A DNA stretch of 64,000 bases, from the NCBI GenBank assembly GCA_028289585.1, contig JANQPI010000026.1:310001-374000 (forward strand), in the 5' to 3' direction. Positions 3,686 through 51,187 of the stretch are shown piece by piece. The notes beneath the pieces are model-generated. The model was not told where the DNA came from and made no database searches. It was given only the letters and a program-made list of their open reading frames with translations. Position 1 is the stretch's first letter; each line of letters begins with the position of its first letter. This stretch comes from Candidatus Zixiibacteriota bacterium. Its GTDB lineage: Bacteria; Zixibacteria; MSB-5A5; GN15; FEB-12. The position numbers and the translations under genes were made by a program.

Positions 3686-5431
3686 ATGAAACGATTTTCG
3701 CTCGTGGTGGTGCTGATTTGTGCCCTTCTTGTTTCCTCACGCCCGGCTGTGGCGGATGCCGCCGCTCAGCTGCGCGATGTTACTGCAAATCTGCTTCTCG
3801 ACATTCAGATGTTTTATCCGGTCAATGCGACGTACCTCGGTCTGAGCGGTCAGGACGGGCTGTTGGCCGATTACAGCAGCCGGTCCACGAAGGCGTTCGA
3901 CAAGAAGTTGCGCGACGGTCTGCGTCGTCTCGAACGAATCGACACCACGCAGTTATCAACGGCAGATCTCATCGACTTCCGCCTGATCCGCTCCAACGCC
4001 CGCATCATTCGCCAACAACTGAACGATATCGAGTGGCACCGTAAGAGTCCTGTTCTTTACGCGGATGAGGTGGTCAACGGGCTTTACTCACTGACCGCTA
4101 CCGCTGGAGATTCGCTCTCTCCACGCGTTATCCCGATCCTCAGTCGCATGCGAGCGGTACCGGGGTTCTTTGCAACCGCGAAGAAGAATCTTCGCAAGCC
4201 GCCACCGGTTCTTATCGAAGTTGCCCGAGAACAGCTGACCGCAGCGGATCGATTCTACAAGACGATTGGCGCACAGCTGATGAACGAGCTCCCCGATCGT
4301 GCCAATGAAATTCTTCGCGTATCGACCCTGGCACGCGAGGCGATTACGTCGTTCGATGTCTGGTTGGAGACTGTGGAGCCGGGTGACAGCGGTTCATTTT
4401 CGATCGGTCGCGAGGAGCTCGATTACATCCTGCGTGAGGAGTACTTTCTGCCGTACGGAGCTGATTCTCTCCTGGCGATTGGCGAGGCGCTCCTGGCGGA
4501 TGCTCAAGCGGCGTACAGTGCATACGAAGCGGAACTGGCGGCGTCACCGTCGACAACGGATTCTGTCTTCGTTCCGCAATCGTTCACGCGAGATGATCTG
4601 CTCGACTACTACCAGTGGGAAGTCGAACAGGTCCGGGTCTGGTTGACGGATAATGACATTTTGACTGTACCGGAAGATATCGCTCCGGTACGAGTTGTCG
4701 AAACCCCGGATTTCCTTCGTCCCATGATCGCCGGTATCGCCTACCTTCCGGCGGCGCCATTCAGCGAGGAGCAGATGGGCATCTTCTATGTCCGTCCGGT
4801 TCCCGAAGAGCTGTCGGATGCGGCTTTAGCCGGGCGGTATCGCTACGTTCATCGGCGTGGATTCAAAGGTTCGGTGGTTCACGAGGCATATCCGGGACAT
4901 CATTTGCAGTCTCAGATCGCCGGTCGCCATCCGGAAGCGATTCGCAAATGGCAGCAGAACATGATGCTGATGGAGGGCTGGGCGCTCTTTTCGGAAGAGA
5001 TGACCTATCGCAACGGACTGTTCGGCGAATCGGACCCGGGTCAGTGGCTTGGTGTTCTGGGGGGGATCCGTTTTCGCGCCGCCCGTATTGTCGCGGATGT
5101 CAAACTCCACACCGGAGCGTTCACCTATCCGGAGTGTGTCGCCTGGATGATTGATGTTCTTGAGGCCGATAGCAAATCGGCACAGGACTATCTCACGCGT
5201 TCGGTGCGGAAATACACGTTCACACCCGGACGCTGGATGTCGTATCTGATGGGGAAACGGGAAGTCGAGCGGTTGCAACGGGCCGCCCGCGTAGCCTGGG
5301 GCGCAGAATACAGCGACCGTGTTTTTTTTGATCGACTGCTGGCGGAAGGGTCGATACCCCCGGCGTTGATGTGGGAGGCATTGGGGTTGTCGCGGTTGGA
5401 TGCGGACCAGGGGTTGGCGTCGCCTCGCTAA
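3686..5431 (+). CDS. Secreted DUF885 family protein, putative metallopeptidase
   Basis: A 581-residue exported protein. Residues 1-25 form a signal peptide (MKRFSLVVVLICALLVSS, then RPAVADA). The rest matches DUF885, whose members resemble zinc peptidases of the thermolysin/M2-M3 type: the motif VVHEAYPGHHLQSQ near residue 396 supplies HExxxGHH, and a downstream acidic helix (LMEGWALFSEEM) supplies the likely third ligand. The peptidase role is a prediction from fold and motif. A ribosome-binding site AAAGGA lies just upstream of the ATG. Probably periplasmic. Confidence 0.88.
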   Translation: MKRFSLVVVLICALLVSSRPAVADAAAQLRDVTANLLLDIQMFYPVNATYLGLSGQDGLLADYSSRSTKAFDKKLRDGLRRLERIDTTQLSTADLIDFRLIRSNARIIRQQLNDIEWHRKSPVLYADEVVNGLYSLTATAGDSLSPRVIPILSRMRAVPGFFATAKKNLRKPPPVLIEVAREQLTAADRFYKTIGAQLMNELPDRANEILRVSTLAREAITSFDVWLETVEPGDSGSFSIGREELDYILREEYFLPYGADSLLAIGEALLADAQAAYSAYEAELAASPSTTDSVFVPQSFTRDDLLDYYQWEVEQVRVWLTDNDILTVPEDIAPVRVVETPDFLRPMIAGIAYLPAAPFSEEQMGIFYVRPVPEELSDAALAGRYRYVHRRGFKGSVVHEAYPGHHLQSQIAGRHPEAIRKWQQNMMLMEGWALFSEEMTYRNGLFGESDPGQWLGVLGGIRFRAARIVADVKLHTGAFTYPECVAWMIDVLEADSKSAQDYLTRSVRKYTFTPGRWMSYLMGKREVERLQRAARVAWGAEYSDRVFFDRLLAEGSIPPALMWEALGLSRLDADQGLASPR

Positions 5432-5488
5432 ACTCACGAATCAGCAACTAATTACACGCCAAGCGAATAGCGAGGCAGATCCGGAAAT

Positions 5489-5503
5489 CAGGCTTGTTGC
5501 CTG
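5489..5503. repeat. Inverted repeat over the HIT promoter -35 box
   Basis: CAGGC TTGTT GCCTG, a perfect 5-5-5 inverted repeat, exactly covers the putative -35 hexamer (5494-5499) of the operon that encodes the HIT protein and the helix-turn-helix/aconitase fusion. A dimeric regulator bound here would block RNA polymerase. The idea that the fusion protein itself binds it is an inference. Confidence 0.4.
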
Positions 5504-5522
5504 GATCGTCGCGGTATATGTT
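5494..5522 (+). promoter_or_regulatory. Putative sigma-70-type promoter of the HIT/aconitase-fusion operon
   Basis: TTGTTG at 5494-5499, a 17-base spacer, and TATGTT at 5517-5522. The -10 ends 6 bases before the ATG at 5529, so transcription should begin at or next to the start codon. No Shine-Dalgarno sequence is visible. The hexamers match consensus at 3/6 and 4/6, so the call rests mainly on the spacing. Confidence 0.4.
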
Positions 5523-5528
5523 CGGGCG

Positions 5529-6020
5529 ATGTCTGATCCGAAGCATCTCTGGGCTCCCTGGCGATCGGCGTTTGTTCTTGGCGACCGGGAGAAAGGGTGT
5601 GTCTTCTGCAATCGCCTAAAAGAGATAGACTCGGTGAAAAATCTCGTCCTCTATCGTGGTGAGCTCAACTTTATCATCATGAATAAGTACCCCTACAATT
5701 CTGGTCATCTTCTGGTGGTGCCTAACCGTCATACCGGGGTGGTTGAGAAGCTCCGACCCAACGAGGCGGCGGAGTTCTTTCATCTCACACAGCTGGGGGT
5801 GCGGATTCTCAAGAAAGTCCTGAAGCCGCAGTCGTTAAACCTGGGCATGAATCTCGGTCGGATTTCGGGAGCGGGGGTGCCAGGTCACCTGCATATGCAT
5901 ATCGTCCCTCGCTGGACCGGGGATACGAACTTCATGCCGATTGTCGGTAAAACCAAAGTCCTGTCAATCCCTCTCGAACCGATCTACAAGCGCCTCCGGG
6001 CCGCGTTCGACGCCGTATGA
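5529..6020 (+). CDS. HIT-family nucleotide hydrolase/transferase (Ap4A phosphorylase-like branch)
   Basis: A 163-residue histidine-triad protein. The N-terminus carries LWAPWRSAF and a zinc-site-like CVFCN at about residues 22-26; the triad is GHLHMHIVPRW near residue 125. The LWAPWR...CxFC layout places it in the branch of mycobacterial and thermophile AP4A phosphorylase-like HIT proteins that act on dinucleoside polyphosphates or adenylylated substrates. I moved the start to the ATG at 5529 because the open frame upstream shows no conservation and MSDPKHLWAPWR is the usual beginning. The stop overlaps the next ATG (ATGA), so the gene is coupled to the HTH-aconitase fusion. Confidence 0.9.
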   Translation: MSDPKHLWAPWRSAFVLGDREKGCVFCNRLKEIDSVKNLVLYRGELNFIIMNKYPYNSGHLLVVPNRHTGVVEKLRPNEAAEFFHLTQLGVRILKKVLKPQSLNLGMNLGRISGAGVPGHLHMHIVPRWTGDTNFMPIVGKTKVLSIPLEPIYKRLRAAFDAV

Positions 6021-7711
6021 GTGACGAGCAACCACCCAAGCGCAACTCGAAAGCGAAGAAACGCGCCGCTGACAAGGAGGATGCCGAAGCGAAGCGCCGC
6101 CGGCGTATTCCCACCAAGTCCGAGCTGCAGCAACTCCAGAAGCTGTACAAAACCGATGAGAAGATCGGCGAGCGTCTGGGCGGGGTGCCGGCGTATCTGG
6201 TTGCCTACTGGCGACGCAAGAAGGGAATTCCTCGGTACAATCTCCCCAAGTTTTCTGAGTCGGAGATTCGGAATCTGTGGGAGCGCTTTGGTGACGATGA
6301 AAAGGCGGGACTAGAACTCGGCATCTCCAAGGCGGCGTTTTACAACTGGCGCCGTCGCTACGGCATCAAAGAGAAGCCGGCCTTTCTCAAGCTTGAGCAG
6401 TTGGAGTTTCCGTTCGCCGGCGCGGCACCGTCGGTCGGCAGCAACACACTCTACGGTAAGCGAACGGTGGCGCAGAAAGTTTTTGCGCGACTCCTGCAAA
6501 CGCAGACCGTGCCGGTGGGCGAGACGGTCTCGGTCGAACCGGACTGGGCGTTGGTCGGACGATCGGCCGCCGAGGTGCTCGGCAAGTTTCGGGAACTCAA
6601 CTCCGAGTATGTGTGGAATCCGAACAAGATCATCATCACTGGTGGTGGCGTTTCGTCGATCGGCGGACACCCGTCGGCCAACGATCGTCGCAAGGTCGCT
6701 GAGTTTGCGCGCCGTCAGGGGATTCGCTCGATCTACTCGGTACTTTCGGGGGCACCGTATCAGCTGGCGCTTGAAAACGGGCATCTGCTCCCCGGTCAGT
6801 TGCTGGTGTCGTGTGATATGTCACCGACGGTCGGTGGGACGATGGCCGGTTTGGCCGCTCGCGTCTCCACTGAAGAGGTGGCAAGGCTCTGGGCGGAAGG
6901 GACAATTGCCCTCCCCGTTCCTCCGACAATTCTTGTCACGATATCTGGCCGGCGACCCCGCGGGCTGTTCGCCACCGATGTCATGTATGAAACGCTGCGG
7001 CAGCTTCGCAACGCGGCGGTCGACGGTCACGCTTTGGAGTTCACGGGTGGGATGATCGCCCAGTTGACCGTTCCGGAACGCATTACGCTTGCGTCGCTGG
7101 CGTCGGAGACCGGCGCTGTTGGCGCGACTCTGCCGTACGACGCGGCGGTGCGACGGTTTCTGGTGCATCGCCATCCCGGCAAGCTGACCCCCCTGCTCCC
7201 CGACAAAGACGCCGAATACGCCGGTCTCTACCAAGTGAATGTCGACCAGTTTGTCCCGATTCTGGCCGGTCCGAACGGATGCGAACAGATTCGTCCGGTT
7301 GCGGAGTTCGAAGACGCCGCGATTTCGCAGGTCGTTATCGGTTCCGTTGGCGGTGGACGCTTTGAGAATCTGCGGATCGCTGCCGATGTGCTGAAGGGGA
7401 AAGAGATTGATCCCGAGGTGCAGCTTTTTGTCATTCCCGATTCGCGGCAAGTTTTCCTTGAAGCTCTCAAGAAGGGTCTCATTCGCGTCTTCATTGAGGC
7501 CGGGGGGACGGTTCTTCCGCCGGGCTGTGATGCGAATGCGATCCGCCGCATTGCCCTCGCGGATACTGAACGGGCACTTGTCACCGGGGATACGACGCTG
7601 GCGAAGGAGTTGGCCGGGGAGAAGGGGGAGTGCTATGTCTGTTCGGCGGCAACGGCGGCAGTCAGTGCGCTCAACGGGGTCATCACCGATCCAAGTCGGT
7701 ATGTTCGTTAG
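6017..7711 (+). CDS. Tandem helix-turn-helix fused to a cluster-less aconitase-fold domain
   Basis: A 564-residue fusion. Residues 1-32 are very basic. Two homologous helix-turn-helix repeats follow, about 33-73 and 80-119, both reading SEL/I..L.....D(D)EK.G..LG......YWRR/NWRR.GI. Residues 150-560 match the aconitase/LeuC family along their length: LEFTGGMIAQLT, PERITLASLASETGA, LRIAADVLKGKEI, GLIRVFIEAGG and ALNGVITDP. The Fe-S site is broken. The usual GSCTN is GSVGGGR with V444 in place of Cys, the usual GCxxC is GCDAN with only C504 kept, and the NRNF..GR substrate loop is absent. It therefore cannot carry a normal aconitase cluster. A DNA-binding regulator sensing a metabolite is my inference. 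It overlaps the HIT gene by 4 bases. Confidence 0.75.
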   Translation: MSDEQPPKRNSKAKKRAADKEDAEAKRRRRIPTKSELQQLQKLYKTDEKIGERLGGVPAYLVAYWRRKKGIPRYNLPKFSESEIRNLWERFGDDEKAGLELGISKAAFYNWRRRYGIKEKPAFLKLEQLEFPFAGAAPSVGSNTLYGKRTVAQKVFARLLQTQTVPVGETVSVEPDWALVGRSAAEVLGKFRELNSEYVWNPNKIIITGGGVSSIGGHPSANDRRKVAEFARRQGIRSIYSVLSGAPYQLALENGHLLPGQLLVSCDMSPTVGGTMAGLAARVSTEEVARLWAEGTIALPVPPTILVTISGRRPRGLFATDVMYETLRQLRNAAVDGHALEFTGGMIAQLTVPERITLASLASETGAVGATLPYDAAVRRFLVHRHPGKLTPLLPDKDAEYAGLYQVNVDQFVPILAGPNGCEQIRPVAEFEDAAISQVVIGSVGGGRFENLRIAADVLKGKEIDPEVQLFVIPDSRQVFLEALKKGLIRVFIEAGGTVLPPGCDANAIRRIALADTERALVTGDTTLAKELAGEKGECYVCSAATAAVSALNGVITDPSRYVR

Positions 7712-51046: not shown

Positions 51047-51187
51047 CTGTTCTCCTCCATCGTACCTACGCAAACGGCGTGCACAGTGGCTCGGATCGAG
51101 CGGAAAAGGCGCCGGTGACGCCCATGTGAATCGCATGATACCACTGAAAGAGCCTGTCGCACAAGCAGTTGTAAGGCCGGCGTGATC

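Follow-up and report, generated by a model that had tools for sequence, protein, structure and literature searches.

Within the window (the whole stretch of Zixibacteria DNA that was analyzed, 64,000 nucleotides in length), two genes on the forward strand were found to form a short operon, in which a gene for a HIT-domain protein is followed by a gene for a protein that joins two helix-turn-helix (HTH) units to an aconitase-fold domain (Table 1). The stop codon of the HIT gene overlaps the start codon of the HTH-aconitase gene (ATGA), and a HIT gene was the upstream neighbor at 37 of 41 loci across the phylum; the coupling to a HIT protein described in the initial annotation thus extends well beyond this genome. 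Upstream of the operon lie a predicted operator and a putative -10 box, with TATATT- or TATTAT-like boxes detected by eye in relatives at a comparable distance from the HIT start. Residues 1-30 of the HTH-aconitase protein (6017-6106 of the window) include an N-terminal extension, basic and about 25 residues long, that is absent from aligned relatives.

Table 1. Features of the HIT-HTH-aconitase operon and its upstream region, in window coordinates.
Feature	Position	Strand	Basis
Predicted operator GCAACTAATTACACGCCAAGCGAATAGC, 28-bp inverted repeat	5444..5471	+	Motif discovery, cross-validation
Putative -10 box TATATG of the HIT/HTH-aconitase operon	5515..5520	+	Read by eye; weak
HIT-domain protein, first gene of the operon, start ATG 5529	5529..6020	+	Pfam HIT, E = 8.1e-15
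Twin-HTH/aconitase-fold protein, 564 aa	6017..7711	+	ORF translation, Pfam, NCBIfam, AlphaFold2
HTH unit 1, residues 33-74	6113..6238	+	AlphaFold2 helices 34-44, 47-53, 59-68; 87% mean pairwise identity within family f1
HTH unit 2, residues 79-119	6251..6373	+	AlphaFold2 helices 81-91, 94-101, 105-114; weak HTH_Tnp_1/HTH_23 matches
Short motif KPAFLKLEQLEFPF, residues 120-133, nearly invariant	6374..6415	+	89% mean identity in family
Disordered variable linker, residues 134-146	6416..6454	+	40% identity; low pLDDT
LeuC/HacA-type aconitase-fold domain, residues 147-564, degenerate active site	6455..7708	+	Pfam, NCBIfam, motifs, structure
V444 codon, first cluster cysteine position	7346..7348	+	Alignment with relatives
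C504-D-A-N507 codons, second and third cluster cysteine positions	7526..7537	+	Alignment with relatives

Twin HTH part and aconitase-fold domain

When modeled with AlphaFold2, the N-terminal part of the protein was found to fold as two three-helix HTH units with pLDDT values mostly above 90 in both, and the two units are homologous to one another (0 of 1000 shuffles reached their mutual alignment score). Weak matches to HTH_Tnp_1 and HTH_23 were detected in 90 and 86 of 92 family members, respectively, both below the curated Pfam cut-offs, and no curated Pfam HTH family was matched above its cut-off. These weak matches are to transposase-like and homeodomain-like HTH families; tblastn searches of plasmids similarly returned weak matches to the HTH of IS3-family transposases. 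By Foldseek, the nearest solved fold was the twin HTH of the mariner transposase Mos1, a weak match (E = 0.075), all matches of the HTH part having E values above 0.07. A sequence search of the PDB with an HTH profile gave matches at the level of chance only. Mos1 and IS3-type transposases carry their HTH units in a row, as does the Zixibacteria protein. By contrast to these transposases, the Zixibacteria protein has no transposase domain and is found as a single copy throughout the phylum. The block of residues 120-133 that follows the second HTH unit is conserved across the phylum with the consensus KPxxLKLEQLELxF, yet is partly disordered in the full-length AlphaFold2 model, where pLDDT was below 50 over residues 128-141. 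This block resembles a docking motif, such as the sliding-clamp consensus QLxLxF.

The remainder of the protein was matched by the Pfam Aconitase family at residues 229-554 (E = 1.8e-43), and its best NCBIfam matches were LeuC/HacA-type models over residues 150-560, below the family cut-offs. The AlphaFold2 model displayed a full aconitase fold with the domain order of LeuC-type proteins and was closest to the isopropylmalate isomerase MJ0499 (4kp1/4nqy) and the homoaconitase MJ1003 (4kp2), which represent the nearest sequence family and have this fold in common with the window protein (TM-score 0.85-0.89 on the target, 26-27% identity). The C-terminal domain is taken to descend from the large subunit of an isopropylmalate/homoaconitate-type hydro-lyase. 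Compared to LeuC/HacA, however, the window protein has an added N-terminal twin HTH and has lost the cluster cysteines, the substrate motifs and the small subunit. Where LeuC has GSCTNGR and GCGPC, the window protein has GSV444GGGR and GC504DAN507, such that V444, C504 and N507 occupy the ligand positions and one of three cysteines remains. The NRNF..GR substrate loop is absent, and the DHxxPAxS (DH) and DSHT active-site motifs are also lost. No separate small-subunit (LeuD) gene was detected in the same genome, in which PF00694 is carried by AcnA only. The aconitase domain of the window protein is predicted to be without a usable Fe-S cluster or active site. Much of this had been read from the letters in the initial annotation, and the two homologous DNA-binding-like repeats, the expected folding of residues 33-119 as HTH units, the full aconitase/LeuC domain, the loss of two of three cluster cysteines and the missing NRNF..GR loop all stood up to the present analysis.

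Distribution and state of the fused domain in Zixibacteria

The HTH part was found in 121 of 133 Zixibacteria genomes, one copy each (77 of 79 among the good-quality ones), mostly on open reading frames of about 480-600 residues; the fusion is conserved among homologues. The range outside Zixibacteria was probed with two peptide patterns and with plasmids, and within that scope the HTH part is restricted to the phylum. In two good-quality genomes (G042 of family f5 and G070 of f1) the HTH part was not found, which may reflect absence or an assembly gap. Within f1, the family of the window protein, identity was 83-87% for the HTH units and 89% for the residues 120-133 block, and 43-50% for the enzyme domain. 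A decaying pseudogene was ruled out on the grounds that the gene is single-copy and full-length in nearly all genomes of the phylum, with a nearly invariant HTH part.

In families f6, f12, f13 and f14, the fused domain was found to be intact with all LeuC motifs (DHRAPAES or DHRVPAES, DSHT, GSCTNGR, PGCGPCLG and NRNFKGR) and to score above the PRK00402, TIGR01343 and TIGR02086 cut-offs, and an intact small-subunit gene (leuD) lies directly after the fused gene. Both the large-subunit motifs and the adjoining small subunit were partly decayed in f15, in f16 and at one f4 locus. Since f6, f12, f13 and f14 keep an intact domain and leuD, the window protein is regarded as a decayed form of an enzyme-HTH fusion, which at its origin probably had enzyme activity and was accompanied by a small subunit. 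All three cluster cysteines were kept in most f4 members, in three f16 members and in one f1 member (L057), and the Fe-S ligands were therefore probably lost more than once. In a tree of the domains, intact fused forms were found on short branches beside stand-alone enzymes and decayed forms on long branches; the tree was drawn with a midpoint root, and its long branches may misplace some members. At one f10 locus (L130), an intact-looking LeuD was detected beside a strongly decayed fused LeuC.

These comparisons modify part of what had been claimed for the window protein. The V444 and N507 changes, put forward as possibly conserved, are not, as relatives vary at both positions, and they were ruled out as a conserved functional change. 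The description of the protein as "permanently apo" fits the window species and does not carry over to the intact f6 and f12-f14 forms, to f4 with its mostly three-cysteine members or to L057. Homologues with all three cysteines, named in the initial annotation as a refuting finding, do exist; they refute a conserved loss and leave the reading of the protein as a regulator unaffected.

The intact forms also bear on whether, in all lineages, the aconitase domain has kept an enzymatic function with a changed active site and is localized or regulated through the HTH part, that is, a trigger enzyme. We consider this improbable. The modeled fold is intact, R379, R380, D396 and Y401 are invariant in a 28-sequence alignment, and enzyme and small subunit are both intact in f6 and f12-f14; in the window lineage, however, the ligands of the cluster have been lost along with the DH, DSHT and NRNF..GR motifs, and a separate small-subunit gene is missing from the genome.

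Predicted operator and genome-wide sites

Motif discovery in the upstream regions of 41 loci revealed a 30-bp motif with a log-likelihood of 253 compared to 91-98 in shuffles, the set consisting of 41 non-redundant regions labelled f1, one of which (L060) is f4-like by its HTH sequence. The weight matrix correlated with its own reverse complement at 0.78 and as a direct repeat at 0.60, and the operator consensus is nYAAC...YTR-N5-YAR....TTASn. By five-fold cross-validation, a significant site was detected in 35 of 40 held-out loci, and in 28 no other stretch of the locus scored as high. The window copy, 85 bp upstream of the HIT start, was the best site of the 64-kb window (17.6 bits) and the only perfect match to the search pattern in the genome; this predicted operator falls inside the interval 5400-5530 that had been proposed earlier for a test of DNA binding. 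The second-best operator-like site of the window (14.8 bits; 51145-51172, reverse strand) lies inside a called open reading frame. A search of 55 genomes with an idealized perfect palindrome yielded almost no matches; the actual sites are degenerate and call for a weight matrix. When a motif model was left unconstrained and allowed multiple sites, it collapsed onto AT-rich sequence.

A second operator copy was found 81-86 bp further up in 15 loci from about a dozen genera, a distance of eight helical turns that suggests DNA looping. Outside f1, the full inverted repeat scored well at the HIT promoter in few loci (L119 of f5, L128 of f9 and L130 of f10), and only a single half-site-like stretch resembling AAACCNNTTG was seen by eye near the -35 box in f4 and at several f2 and f5 loci.

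When used to search genomes, the motif profile gave 28 sites in 16 f1 genomes, compared to none for the reversed model in those genomes, and 26 of 31 inspected loci (the 28 profile sites and three from the pattern search) were intergenic. In the window's own genome, of which 1.29 Mb were scanned, 23 sites of at least 16 bits were detected, 20 of them in the intergenic sequence that makes up 7.5% of the total. Over the same 1.29 Mb, 30 column-permuted motifs gave a mean of 2.1 sites in all and 0.2 intergenic, and a change of the spacer by even one base abolished the signal (0-4 sites in all). When intergenic sequence alone was considered, the 20 sites compared to 0.27 for permuted motifs and 0.1 for dinucleotide-shuffled sequence. 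The intergenic count is conservative, since the operator of the operon itself was scored as coding owing to an upstream alternative HIT start; scaling to 3.15 Mb gives roughly 50 sites. Thirty sites were also inspected in 24 genomes from other families, and 24 of these sites were intergenic. An outside control with E. coli was of low power, with 3 sites in 300 kb and up to 3 for permuted motifs. In genome G000, two sites of 22.8 and 21.0 bits (contig C20, 221356 and 221850; 16357 and 16851 of L222) lie 494 bp apart in one intergenic region.

The genes near the sites are functionally mixed and include dciA-gyrB, mraZ, secA, a flagellin, a pilin-like gene, secreted proteins and pyruvate kinase, several of these names having been read from sequence without an HMM. 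The strong site upstream of dciA-gyrB, along with the nearly invariant, clamp-motif-like QLxLxF block in the disordered linker, would suit a protein of chromosome biology that controls the origin or topology, perhaps by way of the sliding clamp, and is not a transcription factor in the classical sense. Such a role appears quite improbable, as sites are also found upstream of many unrelated genes and the clamp likeness comes down to one short motif. An origin-region idea that arose from the clustering of sites at gyrB was likewise dropped: no dnaA or dnaN was noticed there, and the sites are genome-wide.

Proposed function and comparison to known regulators

The observed architecture, its conservation, the operon, the operator motif and the genome-wide site set are best explained, we think with good probability, by a phylum-wide autoregulating one-component transcription factor that uses a repurposed aconitase as a sensor or oligomerization domain. 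The DNA-binding regulator of the initial annotation is well supported at the sequence level by the near-invariant twin HTH, the operator motif and the intergenic site set. Binding of the motif by the twin-HTH/aconitase protein itself is inferred, as would be its stoichiometry, a role as repressor or activator and the nature of a ligand. The two HTH units of each subunit would read two short half-site blocks, YAA and YTR, and the 28-bp inverted repeat would be read by two such subunits as a dimer. Bound upstream of its own HIT-HTH-aconitase operon, the protein would regulate its own synthesis, with looping between the paired operators of the dozen or so related genera, and it would also bind several dozen other promoters. 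In the window lineage, the Fe-S ligands, catalytic loops and small-subunit gene would have been lost after the fusion, and the remaining aconitase fold would most likely serve in dimerization or in allosteric sensing of a small acid.

The link between motif and protein is drawn from genomic position and shared distribution. As these are the only ties, the operator may instead belong to a different phylum-wide regulator, of which the HTH-aconitase protein, itself binding something else, would be a target; the motif is, moreover, a general regulon motif that reaches beyond the HIT-HTH-aconitase operon. We judge this unlikely, however, given that doubled, phased sites at the protein's own promoter in many genera are typical of autoregulation, that a half-site of two short blocks suits a twin HTH, and that conservation across the phylum is seen for the HTH domain as well as for the motif.

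Apo aconitases bind RNA, as established for IRP1 and Bacillus subtilis CitB, and IRP2 is without enzymatic activity. IRP1/IRP2 and CitB place a regulatory role on the aconitase fold, as proposed here for the Zixibacteria protein; they bind RNA via that fold, whereas the Zixibacteria protein has a separate part for DNA binding, and its predicted operator is a DNA motif. This precedent, together with IRP1 being a structural neighbor, would allow the Zixibacteria protein to bind RNA through its aconitase fold in the apo state, with only an accessory role for the HTH part. We find this very improbable, as the strongest constraint lies on the HTH region and not on the aconitase fold, and the conserved cis element is DNA-like: it keeps to fixed positions ahead of promoters, and at other places in the genome it lies between genes in either orientation. 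A DNA-binding part fused to a metabolic-enzyme fold is known from MocR/GabR, PutA and NadR, some of which are no longer enzymes; by contrast to the aconitase of the Zixibacteria protein, their folds are those of an aminotransferase, a proline dehydrogenase and an NMN-adenylyltransferase. Enzyme-derived regulators are thus already known, and the aconitase fold appears to be new among them within the open-access literature searched, in which no aconitase-fold DNA-binding regulator was found to be described.

On a broader reading, to which we lean by a little, a single fusion event between a twin HTH and an active LeuC-type hydro-lyase founded a phylum-wide family of global regulators. Some lineages would still hold a bifunctional Fe-S enzyme and transcription factor with its small subunit, and others would have undergone parallel decay to a sensor or scaffold, with DNA-binding part and operator held constant. 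A working enzyme, intermediates and a dead form with a common DNA-binding part are rarely found in one phylum. Hardly any regulators are known from Zixibacteria, for which the analysis provides a candidate global transcription factor, a motif and a target list. Should the intact form respond to the state of its own Fe-S cluster or to its substrate, it would act at promoters as a direct sensor of iron or of a metabolite.

With regard to the possible signal, for which a TCA or branched-chain acid had been suggested in the initial annotation, PF08502 (the LeuA-dimer domain) was not detected above its cut-off in 36 Zixibacteria genomes, compared to its presence in 14 of 14 control genomes. A leucine-pathway signal is therefore less likely, and a leucine-pathway regulator was set aside as unsupported. 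A role of the fused protein as TCA aconitase was also rejected, since its own genome already has AcnA. In another genome (G103, locus L183), a stand-alone pair of LeuC-type and LeuD-type genes was found between citrate synthase and isocitrate dehydrogenase, and this LeuCD-like pair probably serves as the TCA aconitase there.
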